NCBI RefSeq assembly: GCF_032598905.1 | Contig: NZ_CP122458.1 | Coordinates: forward strand, 5,481,001-5,545,000 | Length of the DNA stretch: 64,000 nucleotides | Direction of reading: 5' to 3' | DNA from: Streptomyces sp. 11x1 | GTDB lineage: Bacteria > Actinomycetota > Actinomycetes > Streptomycetales > Streptomycetaceae | Part shown: positions 10,591-32,895 of the stretch, in pieces | How positions within the stretch are numbered: the first letter of the stretch is position 1 | Layout: each line of letters starts with the position of its first letter | The notes under the pieces: model-generated | Databases searched by the model: none | What the model was told of the DNA's origin: nothing | Seen by the model: only the letters and a program-made list of their open reading frames with translations | Translations under genes and position numbers: made by a program

Positions 10591-10730
10591 CCCGCCCGCC
10601 ACCATGTGGCGCGATCCGCCGCCCCGCGGCCACGTGGCGCGATCCTTGTGAACCGTGGCGATCACGCCGCTGTCCCGCCGGTGTGCCGCGCGCGACGCTG
10701 GAGGCGAATCGAAGGGACAGGACACCACTC

Positions 10731-11783
10731 ATGACTCGCATCGCGATCAACGGATTCGGCCGCATCGGACGCAACGTGCTGCGCGCACTGCTCGAACGCG
10801 ACAGCACCAGCGGCAACGGCAAGGGCAGCGGCAAGGGCAGTGACCGCGCTCTCGACGGCGATCTCGAAATCGTCGCCGTCAACGACCTCACGGAGCCCGC
10901 CACCCTCGCCAGGCTTCTCGCCTACGACAGCACGGCCGGCCGTCTCGGGCGCCCGGTGACCGTCGACGGGAACACGCTGGTCGTCGACGGCCGCCGGATC
11001 ACGGTGCTGGCCGAGCGTGAGCCCGCGCAGCTGCCGTGGGGCGAACTCGGCGTCGACATCGTCCTGGAAGCCACCGGCCGCTTCACCTCGGCGAAGGCAG
11101 CCCGGGCCCACCTCGACGCGGGCGCGAGGAAGGTGCTCGTCAGCGCACCCTCCGACGGCGCGGACGTCACGCTCGCGTACGGCGTCAACACCGACGCGTA
11201 CGACCCGGACGTGCACACGATCGTCTCGAACGCGTCGTGCACGACCAACGCGCTCGCGCCGCTGGCCGCGGTCCTCGACGAACTCGCCGGCATCGAGCAC
11301 GGCTTCATGACGACGGTGCACGCCTACACGCAGGAGCAGAACCTCCAGGACGGCCCGCACCGCGACGCCCGCCGCGCCCGCGCCGCCGCCGTCAACATCG
11401 TGCCGACCACGACGGGCGCCGCCAAGGCGATCGGCCTGGTCCTGCCGAACCTGGACGGCAAGCTGTCCGGCGACTCGATCCGGGTCCCGGTCCCGGTCGG
11501 CTCGATCGTGGAACTCAACACGACCGTGGCCCGGGACGTGACGCGTGACGAGGTCCTGGCGGCGTACCGCGCGGCGGCGGAGGGCCCGCTCGCCGGCGTC
11601 CTCGAGTACTCGGAAGACCCGCTGGTCTCCGCCGACATCACGGGCAACCCGGCTTCGTCGATCTTCGACTCGGCCCTCACCCGCGTCGACGGCCGCCACA
11701 TCAAGGTGGTCGCCTGGTACGACAACGAGTGGGGCTTCTCGAACCGAGTCATAGACACCCTCACCCTCCTGGCCACCCCCTGA
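10731..11783 (+). CDS. Glyceraldehyde-3-phosphate dehydrogenase (secondary type)
   Basis: A 350-residue GAPDH converting glyceraldehyde 3-phosphate to 1,3-bisphosphoglycerate. NAD-binding I-N-G-F-G-R-I-G-R-N and active-site S-N-A-S-C-T-T-N with the nucleophilic Cys are intact, and the C-terminal W-Y-D-N-E-W-G-F-S-N-R is present. The N-terminal domain contains an unusual Ser/Gly/Lys insertion (about residues 24-36, G-K-G-S-G-K-G-S) in the loop after the first helix. Streptomyces usually have several gap genes; lying behind a GlxA-type regulator, this is probably a conditionally used copy. Confidence 0.92.
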   Translation: MTRIAINGFGRIGRNVLRALLERDSTSGNGKGSGKGSDRALDGDLEIVAVNDLTEPATLARLLAYDSTAGRLGRPVTVDGNTLVVDGRRITVLAEREPAQLPWGELGVDIVLEATGRFTSAKAARAHLDAGARKVLVSAPSDGADVTLAYGVNTDAYDPDVHTIVSNASCTTNALAPLAAVLDELAGIEHGFMTTVHAYTQEQNLQDGPHRDARRARAAAVNIVPTTTGAAKAIGLVLPNLDGKLSGDSIRVPVPVGSIVELNTTVARDVTRDEVLAAYRAAAEGPLAGVLEYSEDPLVSADITGNPASSIFDSALTRVDGRHIKVVAWYDNEWGFSNRVIDTLTLLATP

Positions 11784-11873
11784 CGACACCCGACCCCGAG
11801 AACGCGTGATGTGACCCCAGACACGTCACCCACCCGCTGTGGACAAAAGCCAGGACAACGAAGGCTGAGACAC

Positions 11874-11911
11874 GTCGAAGGGCCCCACCGCGAACGGTGG
11901 GGCCCTTCGAC
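11874..11911. terminator. Hairpin terminator, probably the original tRNA-Ser terminator
   Basis: A perfect 17-bp inverted repeat around a CGAA tetraloop. It lies 21 bp beyond the displaced tRNA-Ser 3' fragment, on the side where the tRNA transcript would once have ended. It can also end transcription of the GAPDH gene from the other side. Confidence 0.8.
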
Positions 11912-11932
11912 ATCGTGCCCGGTGAGGCACTG

Positions 11933-11986
11933 GCGGAGGATACGAGATTCGAACTCGTGAGGGGTTGCCCCCAACACGCTTTCCAA
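11933..11986 (-). repeat. att direct repeat: displaced 3' end of tRNA-Ser
   Basis: 54 bases identical to 18879-18932, covering the tRNA-Ser(GGA) from its 3' end back into the anticodon loop. The anticodon 5' arm, D arm and 5' acceptor strand are absent here and the flanking sequence diverges at once. This is the classic scar of site-specific integration at a tRNA 3' end: the intact tRNA is at the other border and this is the chromosomal copy left behind. Confidence 0.92.
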
Positions 11987-12080
11987 ATGTTCGTCTGGGG
12001 GTTCGGGATTGATCAGCGGCGTCCTGACCTGCGACGGAATGCGGCTGAGGGCAGGCGGTGGACGGTGCTGAACGGCAGTG

Positions 12081-12100
12081 AATGCAACCAGAACTGCAAC
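12081..12100 (+). repeat. Internal 20-bp border repeat (left), candidate integrase arm site
   Basis: Reads AATGCAACCAGAACTGCAAC, identical and in the same orientation as 18793-18812. It lies 95 bp inside the left att core and contains two TGCAAC half-units. The role as a recombinase arm site is inferred from position and symmetry. Confidence 0.55.
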
Positions 12101-12117
12101 TAGAGATCAGTTCCTGC

Positions 12118-13539
12118 TCACACTCTGCGCCAAGCGCTGAGCAGTTCCTCAGGGCCGTACACCGCCTGAAGGCCGGAACAACCGATCCCGCTGCGGGAGA
12201 CCGCCACGAGCGGTACCGGCTCGTCGGTGATCGCTGCCCGGTGCTTCTGCAGCGCGGCCAGGTCGTGGCTGTCGAACGGGGAGTTCTCCAGCCACTTGAC
12301 CGAGCCGAGAAAGACCAACTGCTTGGCCACCGGCTGTCGGTCGGCGCCCACCAAGTCGATTTCGACGTCGTTGCTGCGGGTCCAGTACCCGCCGATCGCC
12401 GGGGCAGCCGGCAGGAGCCCGTCCGGCAGGAGGCGGGCGAGGGATTCCCGGACCAGGGGCTCGATCGCGCGGCCGCGCCAGCTCGTCCACTGCTCCTTGA
12501 TCCGGCTCAATGTGAGATCTCCCCGCATCCGCTCGATCTCCGCCATGTGCGGATCCAGAAACGCGAGCCAGAACCGCAGGTAGGGGTCGGCCACGCGGTA
12601 GCGGCGTTCCTTCGACGGCCGCAGTGAGAGCGGCAGCTCGGCGGCTACGACCCGTTTCTCGGTCAGGACGTCAGTGGCTCGGGTGAGAGTCGTGTGGGCG
12701 ATGCCGCCGGCCGCGCGCGCGATGTTGGTGAAGGTCCGCTCCCCGGATCCGATGGCCCGCAGCACCTCCCTGCTCATCGCCTGTGGTGGGAACTCCGCGG
12801 CCAGAGAGCGCTCGGCGGAGACCAGCAGTGCCGAGATCGGGTTGTCCAGCGAGTCGCGGAGAAACTCCCAGACATCCGCTCCCGTCCGCCACTCGGCGCA
12901 GATCAGGGGGAGACCCCCCGTGATCAGGGCGGCGTCGAACGCGGCCGCCGGAGACAGGCCGAGCATCTCGCCGATGTCGGCCGGGTTCAGGGGCCCCACG
13001 ACCATTTCCCGGCCCCGCTGGTGAAAGGGGCGGTCGTAGCTGTTCAGCGCCTCCATCATCGACAGATCGGACCCGACCAGGAGGAGAAGCGCCGGCTTGC
13101 GGCTGAGCAGGCGGTCCCATGCCCGCTGGAGCATGCCCTCGAAGGCGTCGATGCGGTCCATGAGATAGGGAACTTCGTCGATGACGATCACGCTCGGGCT
13201 GTCGTCGGGAAGGATCTCCGCAAGCAGCCTGAACGCCGCGTTCCACTGTTCTGGAGCCTCCTCCGTGAACAGTTCCCGTCCCGGGAGGGTGGATCTGGCG
13301 ACGGCGTCGAGCAGTTCCGTCAGCTCGTCCTCCGCGGTGCCGCCCGCCGCGGTGAAGAAGAGGTACGGCACCTCGGTGCGCCGAAGGAACTCTTCGACGA
13401 GGCTGGACTTGCCGACCCGCCGTCTTCCCCGCATGAGGACGCACTGCCCCGGTTTCGCCGTCCCGACGGCATCGTGAACCACCTGCAAGGCGTTGCCGAG
13501 CACGTTCAGCTCGCGGTCCCGCCCGATGAAGCGATGCAT
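12118..13539 (-). CDS. AAA ATPase with DUF234-type C-terminal domain
   Basis: A 473-residue protein. The N-terminal archaeal-ATPase (ATPase_2) domain has Walker A around 38-46 (G-R-R-R-V-G-K-S-S) and Walker B near 117-122 (V-I-V-I-D-E). A winged-helix-like middle part follows (about 265-310), then a DUF234 C-terminal domain. DUF234 is related to PD-(D/E)xK nucleases; here E-I-D-L-V-G is present, but the later acidic-x-Lys pair reads S-V-K, so catalysis may be lost. Ribosome site GGGAGG lies 7 bases before the ATG. It is cargo of the tRNA-Ser element; a perfect 8-bp inverted repeat 20 bases upstream suggests its own operator. Confidence 0.85.
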   Translation of the reverse strand: MHRFIGRDRELNVLGNALQVVHDAVGTAKPGQCVLMRGRRRVGKSSLVEEFLRRTEVPYLFFTAAGGTAEDELTELLDAVARSTLPGRELFTEEAPEQWNAAFRLLAEILPDDSPSVIVIDEVPYLMDRIDAFEGMLQRAWDRLLSRKPALLLLVGSDLSMMEALNSYDRPFHQRGREMVVGPLNPADIGEMLGLSPAAAFDAALITGGLPLICAEWRTGADVWEFLRDSLDNPISALLVSAERSLAAEFPPQAMSREVLRAIGSGERTFTNIARAAGGIAHTTLTRATDVLTEKRVVAAELPLSLRPSKERRYRVADPYLRFWLAFLDPHMAEIERMRGDLTLSRIKEQWTSWRGRAIEPLVRESLARLLPDGLLPAAPAIGGYWTRSNDVEIDLVGADRQPVAKQLVFLGSVKWLENSPFDSHDLAALQKHRAAITDEPVPLVAVSRSGIGCSGLQAVYGPEELLSAWRRV

Positions 13540-13558
13540 GGCAAGCCTCCCGATGGCA

Positions 13559-13580
13559 ATAGTATCGGCAGGGATACTAT
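13559..13580. promoter_or_regulatory. Inverted-repeat operator upstream of the ATPase gene
   Basis: ATAGTATC, six bases, then GATACTAT: a perfect 8-bp inverted repeat 20 bases before the ATG at 13539, in an AT-rich patch. A further GATACCAT half-like site follows at about 13587. Position suits repression of the ATPase gene, possibly autoregulation. Confidence 0.5.
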
Positions 13581-13678
13581 CTCCATCGATACCATCTATC
13601 TCCTTATCGGTGCAGTTCGCTCATGACGCTGTGGATGCGGGAGAGAGTGAAGACGCGCTCGGCGTCCCGACGATGGCA

Positions 13679-13794
13679 TCAGGCTCCGAGGCAGGGCAGG
13701 TCGAGCACGAGGCGGCTAAGGCTGCGTACGGGCCGGTTGCCGGAGGCGGCGATGTACTCGACCGTGATGGCCGCACTGGTGGCGATGGCGTGTG
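13679..13794 (-). pseudogene. Out-of-frame C-terminal remnant following the helicase-associated gene
   Basis: Downstream of the stop at 13795 another minus-strand frame reads T-H-A-I-A-T-S-A-A-I-T-V-E-Y-I-A-A-S-G-N and then S-R-L-V-L-D-L-P. This resembles the strand-rich C-terminal continuation of helicase-associated/WYL-like proteins. It suggests the preceding gene once continued and was cut by a frameshift. Weak similarity judged by eye. Confidence 0.35.
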
Positions 13795-15111
13795 TCAGCC
13801 GACGGGGTAGCCCTGGGCGAGGGCGGACTTGCGGAAGGCGGAGAGCTTGTCGAGGGGGATGGCGAGGTGTCGTTCGCCGAGACGGGTGCAGTGGGTACGG
13901 GTGCGGCGGTCGGTGGCGAGGAGGGCCGCGACGGCGGGGTCCGCGCACTCGACGAGGTGCACCGGCCCGGTGTCACGGATCTGGCCGACGCGGCGGGCGG
14001 CGTCGTCCAGCGGGGAGGTGACCGTCTGCGGGAGCGGAGCGGCGCCGGCCTCCAGATGGTGACGGAGTTCGGCGAGGTCGCGGCCCGAGCCGACGGCGGC
14101 GAGCAGCGAGGCGGAGGTCAGGGCCCACACGCGGTCGCCGGTGCGCTCGGCGAAGGCGTCGAGGAGGAGGGTCTCGGCGAGGGTGAGTCCGTCGAGGGCC
14201 ACCACGTCGTGGTTGGGGAGCACCTTCAGACCGCCGGAACCCTTCGGGACGGTGTCGGCCGGTGCGGGGGCGGGGAGGTAGGTGGCGGCCTGCCCGGTGG
14301 CGTAGGCGCCGAGCGGGTTGAGGCGGAGGGCGAGGAGGCCGTCGTAGCGGCTGATGCAGTCGGTCCAGTCGGCGCCCCAGTTGTCGCGGTAGTCGTCGCG
14401 GGCGCCCACTGGCGGCCGGTAGTCCACATCGATCAGGCCGAGGACGGCGGCGTACTCGAAGAGCACGGCGAGGGTGTAGCGGCCCTGGAGGAGTTCCCAG
14501 TTGTGGAACCCGTCGTAGCCGAGGCTGCCGTACTCGGGGTCCTCCAGGTAGAGCTTCCACAGGGCGCGCTCGGTGCGGGCGATCCCGGGATCGTGACCAG
14601 CCTTGCGCATGGTGCGGAAGAGTGTGTCGACATCGGTCCACTCACCGGATGCGCAGGCGGCCAGGGCCTTGCCGACCTGGGCCCGGCGCGGCTTGACGGC
14701 GGTGAGGACGTTCGCCGCGCGTTGGCCCTTGATCGCCTCGACGCGGGAGAACTCGTCGATCACACCGTGGCTGAGCCAGCGCCGCCACAGCAGGGCGAGC
14801 GTGTCGTGGGCCGGTTTGGTCAGCGCCGCCCTGCCGCGTGCGGTCAGTGCGAGTTTGCCGGAAGCGAGTTCGGCGAGTCCGCCGGCCTGGAGCAGCAGCG
14901 GCCAGGCGAAGGACGCGATCGGTTCCTCGGCGTAGAAGTCGCCGCTGCTGAGCGCTTCCGCGACCGTCCTGACCGTCGCCGCGGACGGGCGGAGTGTCTT
15001 CTCGCTGCAGCGCAGTCGGCCCACCGCGCACAACTGGAGCACCGCCCGCAGATTGGCCTGTGCCTCGTGCTCGGTCGTGCGCACCTGACGCTCGTCGTGG
15101 TCGCCGGTCAC
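13795..15111 (-). CDS. Helicase-associated (XPB/Ssl2-like, Helicase_C_3) protein without motor
   Basis: A 438-residue protein. Its last 100 residues (G-P-V-H-L-V-E-C-A-D-P, then L-L-A-T-D-R-R-T and C-T-R-L-G-E-R-H-L-A-I-P) resemble the Helicase_C_3 helicase-associated domain seen in actinobacterial XPB-like proteins. No Walker A or DEAH motor is present. The GTG start overlaps the stop of the upstream gene by 4 bases (GTGA), so the two are coupled. The middle contains repeated aromatic and Trp-rich helices. A likely frameshift just after its stop may have shortened it. Role unknown; nucleic-acid or protein-complex binding is plausible. Confidence 0.6.
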   Translation of the reverse strand: MTGDHDERQVRTTEHEAQANLRAVLQLCAVGRLRCSEKTLRPSAATVRTVAEALSSGDFYAEEPIASFAWPLLLQAGGLAELASGKLALTARGRAALTKPAHDTLALLWRRWLSHGVIDEFSRVEAIKGQRAANVLTAVKPRRAQVGKALAACASGEWTDVDTLFRTMRKAGHDPGIARTERALWKLYLEDPEYGSLGYDGFHNWELLQGRYTLAVLFEYAAVLGLIDVDYRPPVGARDDYRDNWGADWTDCISRYDGLLALRLNPLGAYATGQAATYLPAPAPADTVPKGSGGLKVLPNHDVVALDGLTLAETLLLDAFAERTGDRVWALTSASLLAAVGSGRDLAELRHHLEAGAAPLPQTVTSPLDDAARRVGQIRDTGPVHLVECADPAVAALLATDRRTRTHCTRLGERHLAIPLDKLSAFRKSALAQGYPVG

Positions 15112-15836
15112 AGCGGCCCCGCACCCACGACGTAGTCGTAGTTCCCGGCGCCGCAGGTGCGCTCCAGCGTCCGTACGATCTTCCGGGCGTCGTCGCGTGG
15201 GCCGTTGATGTAGAGCGGCTTGCCCTGGCGGCCGAAGCCGACCTGCGGGGCCGCCGGGCCGGGCTCACCGAGGTGTACGGAGACCTGCGCGAAGTCCGGC
15301 GCGGGCTCGAAGCCGAGGGCGCGCGCGTAGGCCACCCCACCGTGCACGATGCTCTGCGCCTGCTCCAGGCCGATCCGCAGCGGAGGTCGGTCGAACGCCC
15401 GGTAGTAGTCGCGTACGTAGGCGTCCAGTGATCCTCCGCCCATCACCTGCGGGCCGACGGTGTCCTTGACGCCGAGGCAGTAGACGTCGACGAGGAACCC
15501 GCAGACGGTGACCCGGCTGGCCCGCTCCTGGCGGGCGATCAGGACCTGGGCGAAACCGGCGACCCCGGGATCCCCAGCGACCTCGTCGTCCGCGCGCGCC
15601 CAGTCGGGGGCCGCGGACAGCTCCAGGTCCGTGCTCCAGCCGGCGCTCACCCAGCAGCCCACCACCGGGCGCGCGGCCGGTGCGGCCGTGCTCTGCTGTT
15701 CGTGGGCCACCTGGCGCACCAGCGCGCCGGCCCGGGCCGGCTTCAGCCCGAGGGCCCGTGCGATCTGCTTCGGTCCGCTCCCCTTCTCCCGCAGCGACCG
15801 TACCTGGGACAGAAGTTGAGCATCGTCGTCGTTCAC
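15108..15836 (-). CDS. HTH-containing conserved hypothetical protein
   Basis: A 242-residue protein from GTG 15836. Residues 5-45 form a helix-turn-helix-like segment (G-P-K-Q-I-A-R-A-L-G-L-K-P-A-R-A-G). The rest is a conserved globular domain with V-C-G-F-L-V-D-V-Y-C-L-G-V-K-D, Y-A-R-A-L-G-F-E-P-A-P-D-F and G-K-P-L-Y-I-N-G-P motifs. I have seen that architecture in uncharacterised bacterial proteins but cannot name a function for it. Its stop overlaps the next start by 4 bases. It is divergent from the 2OG oxygenase gene across about 230 bp. Confidence 0.65.
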   Translation of the reverse strand: MNDDDAQLLSQVRSLREKGSGPKQIARALGLKPARAGALVRQVAHEQQSTAAPAARPVVGCWVSAGWSTDLELSAAPDWARADDEVAGDPGVAGFAQVLIARQERASRVTVCGFLVDVYCLGVKDTVGPQVMGGGSLDAYVRDYYRAFDRPPLRIGLEQAQSIVHGGVAYARALGFEPAPDFAQVSVHLGEPGPAAPQVGFGRQGKPLYINGPRDDARKIVRTLERTCGAGNYDYVVGAGPL

Positions 15837-16065
15837 GGGGCCATTGTTCCGCAGCGCCGGGGCGCTAGGTGCGGGAGTCGGCTGTTCCCGTTGTCCCCGG
15901 ATGGGGGACGTACGTGGGCACGCAGGTCCGAGCCGGCGTATCCCGACCCCGTCCGTCCGTGCAGGGCAAGGCGTTCCCGTACGGGTGAGACGGCCACCCG
16001 CGGTTCCGATGCTCCATAGAGTCGGGGCGAGGCGGCACGGCCGTGGGAACAGGGAGGACGGAGTG

Positions 16066-18402
16066 ATGGCCAAGAGCGCGAGGGAGCGGCTGGGCGTGCT
16101 CCTCGGCGGTGCGAAGGCGACGGAGTTCAGCGCCCGGCTCGACGCACCGGCGGACGGCGTCCGCCTTGAGGTGGCCGGGGTCGGACCGGTGCGTCTGCCG
16201 CTGCGCGCGCCGCAGGTGAAGAAGCTGATCGCGGTGGCTCGTCCGGCACTGTTCGGCCGGGGGGAGGCCACCCTGAGCGACAGCAGTGTGCGCGACACCT
16301 GGCAGATCCCGCCGGACCAGGTCACGCTGGGCGGCCCGGCCTGGCCGACACTGCTCGACGGCGCGCTGGAGTACTTCCGGGACGAACTCGGGTTCCCCGC
16401 GTCGGCCAGGCTGAGGGCCGAGCCGCACGCGCTCCTCGTATACGGCAAGGGGCAGTTCTTCCTCCCCCACCAGGACTCGGAGAAGGACGACGCCATGGTG
16501 GGCACGCTGGTGCTGTCGCTGCCCTCGGCCCACACCGGCGGCGAGCTGGTCATCGGGCACGCCGGGCAGAGCCGGACCTACCGTGCGTCGAGGACGGAGC
16601 TGGGCCTGGTGGCCTTCTACGCCGACTGCCCGCACAAGGTGACACCGGTCAGGACCGGCTACCGGGTGACCCTCACGCTCAACCTGCTGGCCGAGCGGGC
16701 CGCCCCGGAGCAGGAGTCCGGCCCGCTCGACGACCTGGCGCACTGCCTGGAACAGCACTTCGACACACCGGCCAGGCCGCGCTACGGCGGCCCGTACTCC
16801 GATCCGCCCCGTCGTCTCGTCTACCTGCTCGATCACGAGTACACGCAGCGGGGTCTCGGCTGGGGCCGGCTCAAGGGCGCCGACGCGGAGCGTGCCGCGC
16901 TGCTGCGCGCCGCGGCGGCCCAGGCGGGGTGCGAGACGGTACTCGCCCTCGCAGAGGTGAAGGAGACCTGGGACGCCACTCCGGCCGGATACGACCCCTG
17001 GGACGACTACGGCTACGACGAGGAGGAGGACGGAGAGGAAGAGGGGGAGGAAGCAGCCGCGGTCGACGGCGCGGGTGCCGACGAGGACTACGAGCTGGGC
17101 GAGCTGATCGACGACGAGATCACCCTCGGCTGGTGGACCGGTCCGGACGGCGCCGACGGCGAGGAGATCTCGCTCTACGTCCGCGACTACGAGAGCTGCG
17201 CCAGTACCCCGAGTACGGACCTGAAGCCCTATGACTCCCAGTACGAGGGCTACATGGGCAACTACGGCAACACACTGGACCGCTGGTACCGGCGGGCCGC
17301 GGTCGTGGTGTGGCCACGGGAGCGGGCCTTCGCGGCGCGCGGCGAGGCCGGATCACGGTGGGCACTGGAGGAACTGCAGGCCCGTATCACCACGGGTGAC
17401 CGGGACGGCGCACGTGCCGCGGCCGAGTCCCTCGCGCCGTTCTGGAAGGGCAGTGGTGTACAGCCCGGGCAGCTGGGGAGCGCGCTGCGGGTGGCCGAGG
17501 GCCTTCGGGCGCCCGGGACCGCCGCGATGCTCCTTGAGCCGTTCCGGATCGACGCGCTCACTCCGGAACACGCGGACGACCTGGCCGCGGTGGCGAAGCG
17601 GTACGGCGTCCCGTGGCTGGGCCAGGTCACCGAGGGCTGGTTCGGCGCGCGGAACCGCTTCGAGGAACACCGGTACGACTGGACCGAGCGGCTTCCCCAG
17701 CTGTGCGCGGCGCTGTGCTCCGCCCGGAGTCCGGCGGTGGCCCAGCTGCTGTTGACCGGCGCCTGGACCCAGGTGGACGGTGAGCTGCGGCTGTGGGCCG
17801 CAACCGGGCCGGCCGAGATCCGCCGCGCGCGGTTGGACCGGCTGAGCCTGCCGCTGCTGCGCATCCTGGAAGCGGCTGATGCTCAGCTGCGCGGCCGGAT
17901 CATGGCGGCGTTGCGTTCCTGCCAGGACACGGTCCTGGAGTGCCTGCTGCCGATGCTGCGTCACGCGGCGCGGGAACAGACGGAGGGCGAGCTTCGGTCG
18001 GCGGGGCTCGGAGCGGTGGCGCGGGAGTGCGGGGACCGGCTCGGCGCGCTCGCGCGACGGGCGCCGCGCGCCGCGGACGACTGGTCGGTGGCGTGGACCG
18101 GGTGCGGCTGTGAATTGTGCGGCGGCCTGGGCGAGTTTCTCGGCTCCCGGTCGCGGCGGACGCTGGAGTGGCCGCTGGCGAAGGACGGGCGGCGGCACGT
18201 GCACAGCAGGATCGACACGGCCGAGCTGCCCGTAAGCCATGTGACCAGGAGGCAGGGACGCCCGTACACGCTGGTGCTGACGAAGACCGAGGAGCTGTTC
18301 ACGCGCGAGCGGGCGACCCGCCGTCAGGCCGGAGCTGACCTGGCCTGGCTGGCCTCGACATGGGACCTTTCCGGCGAGGCCGGAGTCGACACGAGGCTGT
18401 GA
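16066..18402 (+). CDS. Large 2OG-Fe(II) oxygenase superfamily protein
   Basis: A 778-residue protein. The N-terminal prolyl-4-hydroxylase-like domain has iron ligands H135-Q-D137 and H190 and a 2-oxoglutarate Arg at about 200 (G-Y-R-V-T-L-T-L-N). A long C-terminal region follows with an acidic stretch (about 305-330), the conserved Y-E-G-Y-M-G-N-Y-G-N-T-L-D-R-W-Y-R-R-A-A block, helical repeats and a late C-x-C-x-x-C (G-C-G-C-E-L-C) possible zinc site. The AGGGAGG ribosome site supports the start at GTG 16063 or ATG 16066. Target unknown; family members hydroxylate proteins or nucleic acids. Cargo of the tRNA-Ser element. Confidence 0.82.
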   Translation: MAKSARERLGVLLGGAKATEFSARLDAPADGVRLEVAGVGPVRLPLRAPQVKKLIAVARPALFGRGEATLSDSSVRDTWQIPPDQVTLGGPAWPTLLDGALEYFRDELGFPASARLRAEPHALLVYGKGQFFLPHQDSEKDDAMVGTLVLSLPSAHTGGELVIGHAGQSRTYRASRTELGLVAFYADCPHKVTPVRTGYRVTLTLNLLAERAAPEQESGPLDDLAHCLEQHFDTPARPRYGGPYSDPPRRLVYLLDHEYTQRGLGWGRLKGADAERAALLRAAAAQAGCETVLALAEVKETWDATPAGYDPWDDYGYDEEEDGEEEGEEAAAVDGAGADEDYELGELIDDEITLGWWTGPDGADGEEISLYVRDYESCASTPSTDLKPYDSQYEGYMGNYGNTLDRWYRRAAVVVWPRERAFAARGEAGSRWALEELQARITTGDRDGARAAAESLAPFWKGSGVQPGQLGSALRVAEGLRAPGTAAMLLEPFRIDALTPEHADDLAAVAKRYGVPWLGQVTEGWFGARNRFEEHRYDWTERLPQLCAALCSARSPAVAQLLLTGAWTQVDGELRLWAATGPAEIRRARLDRLSLPLLRILEAADAQLRGRIMAALRSCQDTVLECLLPMLRHAAREQTEGELRSAGLGAVARECGDRLGALARRAPRAADDWSVAWTGCGCELCGGLGEFLGSRSRRTLEWPLAKDGRRHVHSRIDTAELPVSHVTRRQGRPYTLVLTKTEELFTRERATRRQAGADLAWLASTWDLSGEAGVDTRL

Positions 18403-18435
18403 CACGAGACACGAGACACGAGACACGAGACACGG
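18402..18435 (+). repeat. Tandem 7-bp repeat at end of oxygenase gene
   Basis: About five head-to-tail copies of ACACGAG beginning at the last base of the oxygenase stop codon. A simple-sequence expansion at the junction between cargo and IS remnant. Confidence 0.8.
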
Positions 18436-18439
18436 GCGC

Positions 18440-18735
18440 GACGCCGGCGAAGGCCGCAAGGAACTCCCCGCCCAGGGTGGCGCCGATGCCGGGGACGCCC
18501 TGGACTGTCAGCGAGTTCGTGTTCGCGAAACCGGCCTTCGACGAGTTCGTCCAAATCGGCGATCTGCTCGTTGAGGGCCATCACGTCCCTGACCGGGGCC
18601 GGCGACCGCCGCGTTGTCTGCCCCGCTGAGGATCGTCAGTTGATCGTGTCGGTCCTGACCGTCGGCAATCGCCGGGACGTCCACAGCCAAGTTCCATAGG
18701 ACCTCTGCAGCGCAAGTCGGTGCCGACCGCCTGCC
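18440..18735 (-). pseudogene. IS110-family transposase remnant
   Basis: On the minus strand A-L-N-E-Q-I-A-D-L-D-E-L-V-E-G-R-F-R-E-H is followed, after a frame change, by G-V-P-G-I-G-A-T-L-G-G-E-F-L-A-A-F-A-G. This matches the IS110 transposase segment just before and within its C-terminal Transposase_20 domain. Neither end of an IS nor a complete frame is present, so it is a decayed fragment inside the integrated element. Confidence 0.6.
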
Positions 18736-18792
18736 GGGAGTCGCGGGACGTACGCCTGCCTGTCGGTTGATATGTTCCGAATGTCGCCTATA

Positions 18793-18812
18793 AATGCAAC
18801 CAGAACTGCAAC
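18793..18812 (+). repeat. Internal 20-bp border repeat (right), candidate integrase arm site
   Basis: Identical to 12081-12100 and in the same orientation, 67 bp inside the right att core. Lies between the IS110 remnant and the tRNA terminator. Confidence 0.55.
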
Positions 18813-18822
18813 CAACGTACAA

Positions 18823-18858
18823 CGAGGAGCCGAGCCGCAATTGCGGCTCGGCTCCTCG
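18823..18858. terminator. Perfect 36-bp palindrome terminator after tRNA-Ser
   Basis: An 18-bp perfect inverted repeat with no unpaired centre (AATT middle), 21 bp downstream of the tRNA-Ser 3' end on the minus strand. It differs from the terminator at 11874-11911, consistent with the element having supplied a replacement terminator with the replacement tRNA end. Confidence 0.8.
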
Positions 18859-18878
18859 TTTCGCCTGGTCAGGCGACT

Positions 18879-18932
18879 GCGGAGGATACGAGATTCGAAC
18901 TCGTGAGGGGTTGCCCCCAACACGCTTTCCAA
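18879..18932 (-). repeat. att direct repeat within intact tRNA-Ser
   Basis: The 54 bases shared with 11933-11986, ending in the anticodon loop. This copy completes the functional tRNA gene. Confidence 0.92.
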
Positions 18933-18964
18933 GCGTGCGCCCTAGGCCTCTAGGCGAATCCTCC
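18880..18964 (-). tRNA. tRNA-Ser(GGA)
   Basis: An 85-nt class II tRNA with acceptor GGAGGAT/ATCCTCC, anticodon stem CACGC/GCGTG around TTGGAAA (anticodon GGA), a long variable arm and T loop TTCGAAT. CCA is not encoded. It is the integration target of the adjacent element. Confidence 0.95.
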
Positions 18965-19080
18965 GCCGGAAACATTACATGACGGCGGAGGGTGCTTGCG
19001 AACTCGTTCGACGGCCGGTGATCAAGGTGGGAGCGAGGGGTGGGGAGGCGGGTCGGTGGTCCCCGGGGATCGGGTAGGCT

Positions 19081-19177
19081 GGGGTCAGCCCCTCACGCGG
19101 CGCTATCTGACTGAACTCCCCCAGGGCCGGAAGGCAGCAAGGGTAGGTTGGCTCTGGCGGGTGCGTGAGGGGTCTTC
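19081..19177 (+). ncRNA. ffs: Signal recognition particle RNA (small bacterial type)
   Basis: Contains the diagnostic SRP domain IV core GGCCGGAAGGCAGCAAGGGTA-like segment near 19124-19145 (GGAA tetraloop, asymmetric AGCA/C loop). Long complementary ends (CCCCTCACGC with GCGTGAGGGG) enclose it. It binds Ffh for co-translational targeting. Located directly upstream of dnaX, as in other Streptomyces. Confidence 0.93.
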
Positions 19178-19225
19178 GCCGTCTCGGGCGCCGGGTTGTC
19201 AGTGGGCGCCTATAACCTCGTAAGC

Positions 19226-21760
19226 GTGTCGTCTCTCGCGCTGTACCGCCGATATCGCCCGGAGTCGTTCGCCGAGGTCATCGGGCAGGAGCATGTCACC
19301 GACCCGCTGCAGCAGGCGTTGCGAAACAACCGGGTCAATCACGCGTACCTGTTCAGTGGGCCGCGCGGGTGCGGGAAGACGACCAGCGCGCGCATCCTGG
19401 CCCGCTGTCTGAACTGCGAGCAGGGCCCCACCCCCACGCCGTGCGGTGAGTGCCAGTCCTGCCAGGACCTCGCCCGCAACGGACCGGGGTCGATCGACGT
19501 CATCGAGATCGACGCCGCCTCGCACGGTGGCGTGGACGACGCCCGTGAGCTGCGGGAGAAAGCCTTCTTCGGACCCGCGAGCAGCCGGTACAAGATCTAC
19601 ATCATCGACGAGGCCCACATGGTCACGTCGGCCGGTTTCAACGCGCTGCTGAAGGTCGTCGAGGAGCCGCCGGAGCACCTCAAGTTCATCTTCGCGACCA
19701 CCGAGCCCGAGAAGGTCATCGGGACCATCCGGTCGCGCACCCACCACTATCCGTTCCGGCTCGTCCCGCCCGGCACGCTCCGCGAGTACCTCGGCGAGGT
19801 CTGCGGCAAGGAGAAGATCCCGGTCGAGGAGGGTGTCCTCCCCCTGGTCGTGCGCGCCGGAGCCGGCTCCGTGCGTGACTCGATGTCCGTCATGGACCAA
19901 CTCCTGGCGGGCGCGACGGACGAGGGCGTGACCTACGCCATGGCCACATCGCTGCTCGGCTACACGGACGGGTCGTTGCTCGACTCGGTCGTCGAGGCCT
20001 TCGCCGCCGGGGACGGGGCCGCGGCCTTCGAGGTCGTCGACCACGTCATCGAGGGTGGCAACGATCCGCGGCGGTTCGTCGCCGACCTGCTGGAGCGGCT
20101 GCGGGACCTGGTGATCCTCGCCGCCGTGCCGGACGCCATCGACAAGGGCCTCATCGACGCTCCGGCCGAGGTCCTGGAGCGGATGCGGGCCCAGGCCGGC
20201 GTCTTCGGCGCCGCCGAGCTCAGCCGCGCCGCCGACCTCGTCAACGAGGGCCTCACCGAGATGCGCGGCGCCAACTCGCCCCGCCTCCAGCTCGAACTGA
20301 TCTGCGCCCGGGTACTCCTCCCCGCCACCTACGGCGACGAACGGTCCGTCATGGCCCGCCTGGACCGCCTGGAACGAGGGGTGAACTTCTCCGGCGGCGG
20401 CTCGGCGCCGGCCATGGGTTACCTGCCCGGGCCCGCCGCGCACGGGGGAGCGGCCCAGCCCATGGGCATGGCTGCGCATCCGCAGGCCCCCTCGGCTCCG
20501 CACGGCGCCCAGGCTCCGGCTGCCGCGCAGGTTCCGCCGGGCGGTGGGCCCGCGGCGGCTCGGGCCGCGGTTCGCGGTGCGGGGGCCGGGTCCACTCCCG
20601 GCTCCGGTCACGGCGGCGGAGCACAGGGCGCGCAGGGTCCCGGCGCCGGCCACGGCCCCGTTCCCGGCTCGGGTTCGAATTCGGGTTCGGACGGGTACGG
20701 CTCCGGCGGCGCCGCCGGAGCACCGGCAGCCGGCCCGGCCGGGAACGGCCCGGCCGCACCCCACGAGGGTGCGCCCGTCGCCCCGGCCGCCGCCGCGGGC
20801 GGTACCCCTGCCGGGCCCCCCACCACTCCCGCGCACGCCCAGCCGAGCGCGGGTTCCCCACCCCCCGCCCACCCCAACGCGACGGGCGCACCCGGTGGCG
20901 CCGCTCCCGGCTCCTGGCCCACCCCGGCCGCCGCGGGCAGCGGCCGCCGACCCGGCGGATGGCCGACCGCCGCGCCCGCCGGTGGCGGCTCCGCGCCCGG
21001 CGCCCAGTCCGCGCCCACCCCCGGCCCGGCCGCACCCGCACCCGCGCCCCCGGCGTACGCCCAGCCCGCTCCTCCCGCGGCGAGCCCGACCCCGGCCACT
21101 TCCTACAACCCGGCCCCCGGCGGACCCGACCCCCGCACCCTCTGGCCCAACATCCTGGAGACGGTGAAGAACCGCCGCCGCTTCACCTGGATCCTCCTCA
21201 GCCAGAACGCCCACGTGGCCGGCTTCGACGGCACCACCCTGCAGATCGGCTTCGTCAACGCGGGCGCCCGCGACAACTTCGCGAGCAGCGGCAGCGAGGA
21301 CGTCCTGCGCGCGGCCCTGGCCGAGCAGTTCAACGTGCACTGGAAGATCGAGGCCGTCATCGACACCTCGGGCGGCTCGGCCCCAGCGGCCACCCCCGGC
21401 GGATACGGCGCTCCCGCCCCGGCCGCAGGCGGTTACGGAGGCGGCGGCTACGGCGGTGGCGCGGGCGCCGGTGGCTACGGCGGCTCCCCGGCCCCGTCCT
21501 CCCGCCCCGGCCCGCCCCAGGCGTCGGCCCCCTCCTCCCGCCCGGCATCCCCTGGTACGGCCGCGCCCCACCAGTCGGCCCCGGCCGCTCAGCCCGTCGC
21601 CCCCGTGGCGCCCCCGGCTCCCGAGCCCCCGCCCGTCTCCCCCGAGGACGACATCCCCGAGGACGACGATCCCGACCTCGACGAGACAGCCCTCTCCGGC
21701 CACGACCTGATCGTGCGCGAGCTGGGCGCGACGGTGATCGAGGAGATCGCGAACGAATAG
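19226..21760 (+). CDS. dnaX: DNA polymerase III subunit gamma/tau
   Basis: An 844-residue clamp-loader ATPase. Walker A is G-P-R-G-C-G-K-T-T (45-53), a zinc-binding C-L-N-C-x8-C-x-x-C-x-x-C cluster follows (about 61-79), then D-E-A-H and the S-R-T-H sensor region. About 250 residues of Pro/Ala/Gly-rich linker (from about 390) precede a C-terminal tau-like domain (N-I-L-E-T-V-K-N-R-R-R-F), followed by a second Gly/Tyr- and Pro-rich stretch and an acidic D-D-I-P-E-D-D-D-P tail. GTG 19226 is the family start; TATAAC at 19210 lies so close that a very short leader is possible. Confidence 0.95.
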   Translation: MSSLALYRRYRPESFAEVIGQEHVTDPLQQALRNNRVNHAYLFSGPRGCGKTTSARILARCLNCEQGPTPTPCGECQSCQDLARNGPGSIDVIEIDAASHGGVDDARELREKAFFGPASSRYKIYIIDEAHMVTSAGFNALLKVVEEPPEHLKFIFATTEPEKVIGTIRSRTHHYPFRLVPPGTLREYLGEVCGKEKIPVEEGVLPLVVRAGAGSVRDSMSVMDQLLAGATDEGVTYAMATSLLGYTDGSLLDSVVEAFAAGDGAAAFEVVDHVIEGGNDPRRFVADLLERLRDLVILAAVPDAIDKGLIDAPAEVLERMRAQAGVFGAAELSRAADLVNEGLTEMRGANSPRLQLELICARVLLPATYGDERSVMARLDRLERGVNFSGGGSAPAMGYLPGPAAHGGAAQPMGMAAHPQAPSAPHGAQAPAAAQVPPGGGPAAARAAVRGAGAGSTPGSGHGGGAQGAQGPGAGHGPVPGSGSNSGSDGYGSGGAAGAPAAGPAGNGPAAPHEGAPVAPAAAAGGTPAGPPTTPAHAQPSAGSPPPAHPNATGAPGGAAPGSWPTPAAAGSGRRPGGWPTAAPAGGGSAPGAQSAPTPGPAAPAPAPPAYAQPAPPAASPTPATSYNPAPGGPDPRTLWPNILETVKNRRRFTWILLSQNAHVAGFDGTTLQIGFVNAGARDNFASSGSEDVLRAALAEQFNVHWKIEAVIDTSGGSAPAATPGGYGAPAPAAGGYGGGGYGGGAGAGGYGGSPAPSSRPGPPQASAPSSRPASPGTAAPHQSAPAAQPVAPVAPPAPEPPPVSPEDDIPEDDDPDLDETALSGHDLIVRELGATVIEEIANE

Positions 21761-28568: not shown

Positions 28569-28576
28569 CTCTGCCG

Positions 28577-28649
28577 AGCGGACGACCAGGTTCGAACTGG
28601 CGACCTCAACCTTGGCAAGGTTGCGCTCTACCAACTGAGCTACGTCCGC
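28577..28649 (-). tRNA. tRNA-Gly(GCC), copy 1
   Basis: 73 nt, acceptor GCGGACG/CGTCCGC, anticodon stem CAACC/GGTTG around TTGCCAA (anticodon GCC), T arm GCCAG/CTGGT. It differs from the copy at 32823 by a compensatory T-stem change and a T-loop base. Confidence 0.95.
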
Positions 28650-32813: not shown

Positions 32814-32822
32814 GCTTTCCAG

Positions 32823-32895
32823 AGCGGACGACGAGGCTCGAACTCGCGACCTCAACCTTGGCAAGGTTGCGCTCTACCAACTGAGCTACGTCCGC
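32823..32895 (-). tRNA. tRNA-Gly(GCC), copy 2
   Basis: 73 nt, same acceptor, D and anticodon arms as copy 1 (anticodon GCC); T stem GCGAG/CTCGT instead of GCCAG/CTGGT. Confidence 0.95.

Follow-up and report, generated by a model that had tools for sequence, protein, structure and literature searches.

A segment with intact borders at tRNA-Ser(GGA)

The window analyzed here is a 64,000-nt stretch of the 10.7-Mb genome of Streptomyces sp. 11x1 (NZ_CP122458.1, positions 5,481,001 to 5,545,000), and it contains a candidate satellite element at a tRNA-Ser(GGA) gene. The segment is 6,946 bp in length and is bounded by an exact 54-bp duplication of the 3' part of the tRNA gene, the start-to-start spacing of the two attachment (att) cores also being 6,946 bp (Table 1). 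These direct repeats had been reported in a preliminary description made from the sequence alone, and our analysis confirms them. Extended to 77 nt, the core match is 88% identical between both copies. A search of the window allowing up to 10 mismatches gave no third copy of the core. The left core is identical to the right core although it is displaced from the tRNA gene, and the two arm-type sites and the right-end box described below are intact.

Table 1. Features of the segment and its borders, in window positions
Feature	Position	Strand	Basis
Relic resembling a class D arm, outside the left core; probably marks where an older element had its right end	11841..11858	+	2 mismatches to class D
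Hairpin, 15-bp stem, beyond the left core; displaced former 3' flank of the tRNA gene	11876..11909		Read by eye
Left att core	11933..11986	+	Exact 54-bp repeat
Arm-type site of class E on the left, TGCAACCAGAACTGCAACTA, 96 bp inward of the core	12083..12102	+	Sequence; function inferred
DUF234 AAA ATPase, 473 aa, PDC-S27-like	12118..13539	-	Pfam, PADLOC; dN/dS 0.09-0.13
Helicase_C_3 domain protein, 438 aa	13795..15111	-	Pfam; dN/dS 0.31-0.54
HTH-like protein, ~244 aa, start uncertain	15108..15842	-	Pfam below curated cutoffs, relatives; dN/dS 0.16-0.34
2OG-Fe(II) oxygenase domain protein, ~778 aa, start uncertain	16066..18402	+	Pfam, PADLOC; dN/dS 0.33-0.76
Satellite-type right-end box, with two repeats similar to AATGTC followed by TATAAA ahead of the arm	18761..18794	+	Position weight matrix
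Arm-type site of class E on the right, TGCAACCAGAACTGCAACCA, at 84 bp from the core	18795..18814	+	Sequence; function inferred
Perfect 20+20 palindrome, now 3' of the tRNA gene, terminator-like, no T-tract	18821..18860		Sequence; unlisted by terminator scan
Right att core (3' part of the tRNA gene)	18879..18932	+	Exact 54-bp repeat
tRNA-Ser(GGA), the target gene, which the element restores	18879..18964	-	ARAGORN

The preliminary description placed the original terminator of the tRNA gene beyond the left core and assigned a different palindrome to the restored gene. Both structures are present. The term terminator is applied to them only provisionally, because neither has a T-tract and neither appeared in the terminator scan. 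The hairpin on the left, or a similar one, is seen at many right ends of relatives. Because a class D arm-like relic precedes this hairpin stretch, the sequence to the left of the left core probably represents an older accreted element at its right end and not the pristine 3' flank of the tRNA gene.

Neither an integrase nor a remnant of one was found in the segment, in agreement with the preliminary description. All matches to PF00589 in the host genome at an E value of ≤0.001 lie outside the window, a hidden Markov model (HMM) built from integrases of the hotspot had no match in 11001-20000, and Pfam detected no recombinase in the four main and four small open reading frames (ORFs) of the segment that were scanned, so that an unannotated recombinase was found by neither Pfam nor HMM. 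The Pfam scan of the ORFs also gave no serine recombinase, no separate model having been run for this family, and the stretches without an assigned feature (131, 255, ~220, and 390 bp) seem too small to encode one. Pfam identified no relaxase, no phage gene (PHROGs were not scanned), and none of the int, xis, rep, and tra genes of actinomycete integrative and conjugative elements among the ORFs scanned, and megablast gave no match to the segment among 50,697 phage records. An IS110 remnant at ~18460-18700 had been considered as a replaced integrase; this was an impression from the translation, Pfam had no match for the ORFs there, and the idea was dropped.

Arm-type sites and integrase classes at the hotspot

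A paired-hexamer site (TGCAACCAgAACTGCAAC) is found inside both ends of the segment and is placed like the arm-type site of an integrase. An exact 20-nt repeat is likewise present inside both ends (12081-12100 and 18793-18812), and with up to 2 mismatches allowed, no other place in the genome matches the last 19 nt of this repeat. The arm pattern itself occurs in the host genome at two places only, both within the element. Among 392 Streptomyces genomes, counts from the match table gave 103 sites of this pattern, designated class E, in 66 genomes, vs 7 sites for the reversed-pattern control.

At the corresponding locus, many different insertions at tRNA-Ser(GGA) were observed in a comparison of the host genome with 60 relatives, and in 20 stretches from 15 relatives, hexamer pairs 12 bp apart were present at a fairly fixed distance from the core at most of the well-preserved ends. 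Five classes of arm site were distinguished: A (TGAGACCA), B (TGAGACGG), C (TGAGACTG), D (GGACAA), and E (TGCAACCA). The integrases group by arm class, with A and E intermixed. Sequence identity was 79 to 100% within class B (6 comparisons), 88% within class C (1 comparison), 81 to 84% within class D (3 comparisons), and 70 to 93% within the pooled A and E classes (36 comparisons), vs 56 to 69% between groups (104 comparisons), considering aligned lengths of at least 250 and excluding fragments and the integrase of genome G182.

The N-terminal domain of tyrosine integrases reads arm-type sites. We compared 20 integrases with a readable N terminus, two of the class B proteins being identical and four of the ten class E proteins being assigned by the right arm only. 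The motif F..G.DGRWHGYV was present in 9 of the 10 integrases that adjoin class E right arms and in none of the 10 that adjoin A, B, C, or D arms. Two positions of the motif are occupied by Y and R in all 10 of the class A to D integrases and by F and Y in 9 of 10 class E integrases, G081 being the exception. Such a match between arm class and integrase class would be expected of hexamer pairs that serve as arm-type sites for the N-terminal domain of the integrase (Int), and this domain presumably binds them. The correlation between N-terminal motif and arm sequence provides a candidate recognition code.

Integrase content of large and small intervals

Stretches were fetched from 63 of the 66 class E genomes (G028, G266, and G391 being the others), with the window representing the host genome. 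From 81 composites, 36 with fewer than two copies of the core were dropped, and the remaining 45 yielded 56 core-to-core intervals, with L186 and some further stretches left out. All 14 intervals above 10 kb had an integrase match, among them all 9 of class A/E, one of which (G233) has the C-terminal part only. Among the 42 intervals below 10 kb, 33 had no integrase match of any kind. The integrase in the other 9 was full length and open in 2 (G002 and G021) and partial, split, or a remnant in 7. The 33 integrase-less small intervals comprise 24 with A/E arms at both ends, 8 with no recognizable right arm, and 1 (G023) with a C-like right arm. Counted by right arm, 24 of the 26 intervals below 10 kb with an A/E arm lack an integrase, and the other 2 have a truncated or remnant one. 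Tandem arrays are common at tRNA-Ser(GGA).

The smallest interval in the survey, a class A/A integrase-less interval of 1.1 kb in G029 (L061, 2657-3799), holds only a toxin-antitoxin-like pair of 121 and 137 aa, recognized by eye.

A box at the right end of integrase-less elements

The 34 bp that precede the right arm form a box, which in the window scores 40.9 with a position weight matrix in a leave-one-out test and 46.6 in a rescan with the model that includes it. Leave-one-out scores above 12 were obtained at the right ends of 19 of the 24 integrase-less small A/E intervals and at none of 23 integrase-bearing intervals (best score, -4.6). The 1.56 Mb of fetched DNA contained 56 matches above 12, 33 of which directly precede an arm site, and the matrix was built from 18 of those right ends. 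Ends outside the model also gave matches (G326, G319 C24, G134 C1, and G022 C174), and further boxes were recognized by eye in S. dysideae RV15 (L222) and Streptomyces sp. NTH33 (L227). Matches inside integrase-bearing elements were few and weak (12 to 14). At the left ends, no comparable difference between satellites and large elements was seen among the matches listed.

The box is perhaps the site of an excision factor. The idea that it is a copied origin of transfer (oriT) of the helper found no support, as the strong matches lie at arm sites or degenerate ends. As a search key, the box allows such islands to be found without reference to any gene.

Cargo genes and their spread between species

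The small elements are mosaics, in which a left module encoding a DUF234 ATPase or a toxin-antitoxin-like pair is combined with varied right modules. For the cargo genes, the ratio of nonsynonymous to synonymous substitution rates (dN/dS) was below 1 in 25 of 25 comparisons (0.09 to 0.76), some of them partial; the ATPase values were clearly low, those of the other genes less so. A stop codon occurred in 2 of the 25 comparisons, both with partial copies of the 2-oxoglutarate (2OG) oxygenase gene. PADLOC matched the ATPase of the window (PDC-S27), the 2OG protein, and a DpdE/ZorD-like SNF2 protein in G387, and it gave no match for the Helicase_C_3 and helix-turn-helix (HTH)-like proteins of the window. 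In other small elements, Pfam identified Helicase_C_3 together with WYL (G309 and G029), HNH_2 (G314), and, just below the cutoff, PIN (G387). A defense function of the cargo is possible, and candidate anti-phage genes may be drawn from it. A defense function for all cargo is not supported: the 3.6-kb class E/E integrase-less interval of G252 (L129, 854-4541) encodes a histidine kinase and a short-chain dehydrogenase/reductase (SDR) enzyme by Pfam instead, with a response-regulator-like neighbor gene recognized by eye.

The 2OG gene was detected in 23 of the 392 genomes at an E value of <1e-100. At an identity of at least 90%, it was present in 7 genomes (the host and 6 others), in all of them beside class E ends or cores. 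Homologues with 76 to 78% identity are located in other places. The copies in G131, G134, and G314 are partial or split. By purD, the closest host among 20 compared is G252 (94%), which is not among the carriers at 90% or more; in its array a class B integrase interval adjoins the tRNA gene, and only the end sequences of the element in the window match. The HTH-like gene is found with 89 to 93% identity in Streptomyces sp. MNU76, S. dysideae RV15, Streptomyces sp. yr375, S. blattellae TRM63209, Streptomyces sp. F001, and Streptomyces sp. NTH33, and no hotspot-type integrase was present in the fetched loci of these strains. MNU76 has the left flank of the window (11678-12094, 90%), followed by a class A element.

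In 29 of 36 pairs, the identity of element DNA exceeded that of host purD, by 1 to 13 points; the comparison covers elements aligned over >250 bp with purD available for both genomes, and the pairs are not independent, since they have genomes in common. The right module of the window is 93 to 94% identical to those of G022 and G220, vs 85 to 87% for purD. The SNF2 elements of G120, G387, G377, and G397 are 93 to 95% identical, vs 82 to 88% for purD, and the elements of G277 and G309 are 96% identical, vs 83% for purD. That a plasmid or phage carries the complete element was considered and rejected, as no record covers 80% of it by megablast.

The preliminary description proposed that relatives be searched for an empty site and for cargo without the tRNA duplication. 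In the DNA search of the host genome and 60 relatives, at least 6 of the 60 have a single core at the tRNA gene (G004, G015, G017, G024, G028, and G031 at the least); no empty site with the left flank of the window was found. Cargo without the duplication occurs in two cases. G013 has the left module and a class E arm and lacks the left copy of the core; Streptomyces sp. MNU76 has the cargo and no right copy of the core in the stretch fetched. Both look like local decay.

Candidate helper elements

Two large A/E elements were scanned with Pfam, and a third, in G025, was inspected by eye only. The element of G333 encodes a relaxase, MobC, a DnaB-like protein, an HTH_17 protein, and an integrase; that of G350 encodes a relaxase, a weak NikA-like match, and an HTH_17 protein. 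Among 21 genomes chosen as satellite carriers, in a search that also included G333 and G025, 5 have an A/E-class integrase with matches of at least 73% (G109, G233 in part, G299, G314, and G377), and 11, including the genome of the window, have no class E Int match at an E value of ≤1e-60. The host genome, where the preliminary description had suggested looking for a tRNA-Ser(GGA)-specific integrase, offered neither a resident helper nor a closely related integrase.

Nature of the element

With class E arms at both ends, the right-end box, and no integrase, the segment is probably a non-autonomous integrative element, or satellite, of the tRNA-Ser(GGA) array system of Streptomyces. It is best read as helper dependent and now without its helper, having presumably moved in trans. 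Such an element would retain only the DNA that Int requires, namely the 54-bp core, one class E arm per side, and the right-end box, the rest being cargo. A class E tyrosine integrase from one of the larger elements (24 to 48 kb in the fetched loci), which have the same core and arms, would bind the arms and excise and insert the element, which could travel by itself as a circle or linked in tandem to the helper. We prefer a satellite over a deletion product because the arms are matched, the right end is satellite specific, integrase-less relatives occur in many species, and a matching Int is encoded by larger elements. Of the two origins offered in the preliminary description, the comparative data thus favor the satellite; its mobilization in trans is presumed, and deletion of int remains its rival.

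Several observations weigh against a live satellite. Neither excision nor a circle has been observed. The host genome lacks a helper, the best matches to class E Int there being at most 40% identical, and 16 of the 21 satellite-carrier genomes have no A/E-class Int. At one class E-armed locus (G081), the integrase has an A-type N terminus. The right ends of 5 of the 24 small integrase-less A/E intervals have no scoring box (G169, G228, G380, G354, and G290), and 8 further integrase-less small intervals have no recognizable right arm, so decay clearly happens. The 19 ends with a box are not independent, because several share homologous right modules, and the interval counts do not represent a random sample, because similarity to arms or att sequences guided the choice of loci and 36 of 81 stretches were dropped. 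Element DNA was less alike than purD in 7 of the 36 pairs, by 3 to 12 points (G013-G131, G022-G131, G131-G220, and G152 or G254 vs G277 or G309), 14 further pairs lacked purD for comparison, and the higher identity of the others could have resulted from homologous recombination between arrays.

An unlikely but serious competitor is a cis-mobilizable element (CIME), in which int and the transfer genes have been deleted, the att ends have been kept, and movement takes place only in tandem with an adjacent functional element. Known examples from Streptomyces are XSAM1, which adjoins pSAM2 in Streptomyces ambofaciens (PMC4891641), and, according to passages of PMC8369830, TR1 in S. scabiei. The frequent tandem arrays, the five box-less right ends named above, the integrase remnants in G411, G275, and G254, and the likeness of the left ends of satellites and large elements are all consistent with this origin. 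However, the window contains no neighboring integrase element, and its right end has a box that is absent from 23 of 23 integrase-bearing intervals, which argues against a recent origin by deletion from any of the helpers sampled. The right arm-to-core spacing, 84 in the window and 82 in 6 of the 9 large A/E intervals, does not decide, because G025, G010, and G134 also have 84, and it was rejected as a satellite marker on the same grounds. For a minority of the small intervals, those with right ends that lack the box, a deletion-derived, cis-mobilized origin is likelier. We regard it as very improbable that the segment is a dead relic, with borders kept by chance or by selection on the tRNA gene and cargo spread by homologous recombination via shared array segments. 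The absence of a helper from the host genome, the left and right modules common to different elements, the decayed neighbors in G013 and G134, and the 7 pairs no more alike than purD would fit a relic, but not the dN/dS values below 1 in every comparison, the left core that is still identical despite its displacement with both arms and the box intact, or the same end architecture around different cargos.

The satellite reading raises a broader possibility, which we advance tentatively and at somewhat less than even odds: a dedicated family of recombinase-free islands uses the Int of relaxase-bearing elements in trans, mimics their arms, adds a box of its own, and ferries defense and toxin-antitoxin modules across Streptomyces. 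Such a family would pass exchangeable modules through one tRNA gene, somewhat as cassettes are passed to an integron. Integrase-less tRNA islands are easily dismissed as decayed. The arm-site classes tie them to a specific integrase class, and the question of whether they are live satellites is therefore directly testable.

Comparison with known systems

Phage satellites, such as phage-inducible chromosomal islands (PICIs) and P4-like elements, are small, helper dependent, and often equipped with defense cargo. Unlike these, the segment has no phage gene among the ORFs scanned, and its apparent helper is a relaxase-bearing element. It shares its core and arms with the large A/E elements of this hotspot, which is reminiscent of integrative and mobilizable elements (IMEs) at tRNA genes, but it has no integrase and, by Pfam, no relaxase. 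The segment also resembles CIMEs, which have intact att ends, lack integrase and transfer genes, and stand in tandem with functional elements (PMC4891641 and passages of PMC8369830 and PMC5704250). In contrast to CIMEs, the elements described here are small (~1 to 9 kb), occur in many species, and mostly carry a box unseen in the sampled integrase-bearing elements, and about half of the carrier genomes (11 of 21) lack a class E Int match at the threshold given above. A CIME arises by deletion; the left end of the segment is like that of the helpers, but its right end is unlike those of all 23 integrase-bearing intervals. In Dehalococcoides, 15 islands that lack an integration module occupy one RNA gene, ssrA, and mobilization in cis has been suggested for them (passages of PMC3146451). 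The recombinases of that system are of the serine type, and those passages make no mention of helper-matched arm classes. Small tRNA-Ser(GGA) satellites, arm-site classes, and the right-end box were not described in the titles and abstract openings listed by searches of the open-access literature, which leaves subscription journals mostly outside.

Other observations

A glyceraldehyde-3-phosphate dehydrogenase (GAPDH)-like gene, named by eye (10683-11783), abuts the left att core. Streptomyces sp. MNU76 has the same junction between this gene and the left core. In relatives with both features among the matches listed, the 3' end of the GAPDH-like gene lies apart from the tRNA gene. The left flank of the segment may be cargo of an older element or the result of a rearrangement.

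Two linear plasmids of Streptomyces of ~1 Mb (NZ_CP108633.1, L232 at ~14944-15205, and NZ_CP109560.1, L233 at ~11932-12193) have an att core between a right end of class D and a left end of class E, and the 24 to 30 kb fetched contain no tRNA gene. This looks like an array junction that has moved onto a plasmid. In L232, two small genes, encoding a hypothetical protein and a DNA-binding protein, are next to it. G134 has a satellite relic (C1, 2529600-2549500), with arms of class E and an att core, ~170 kb from its tRNA-Ser locus, which suggests a rearrangement or a secondary site. Finally, tRNA-Gly(GCC) is encoded twice in the window (28576-28649 and 32822-32895), with both genes on one strand and 4.2 kb apart.

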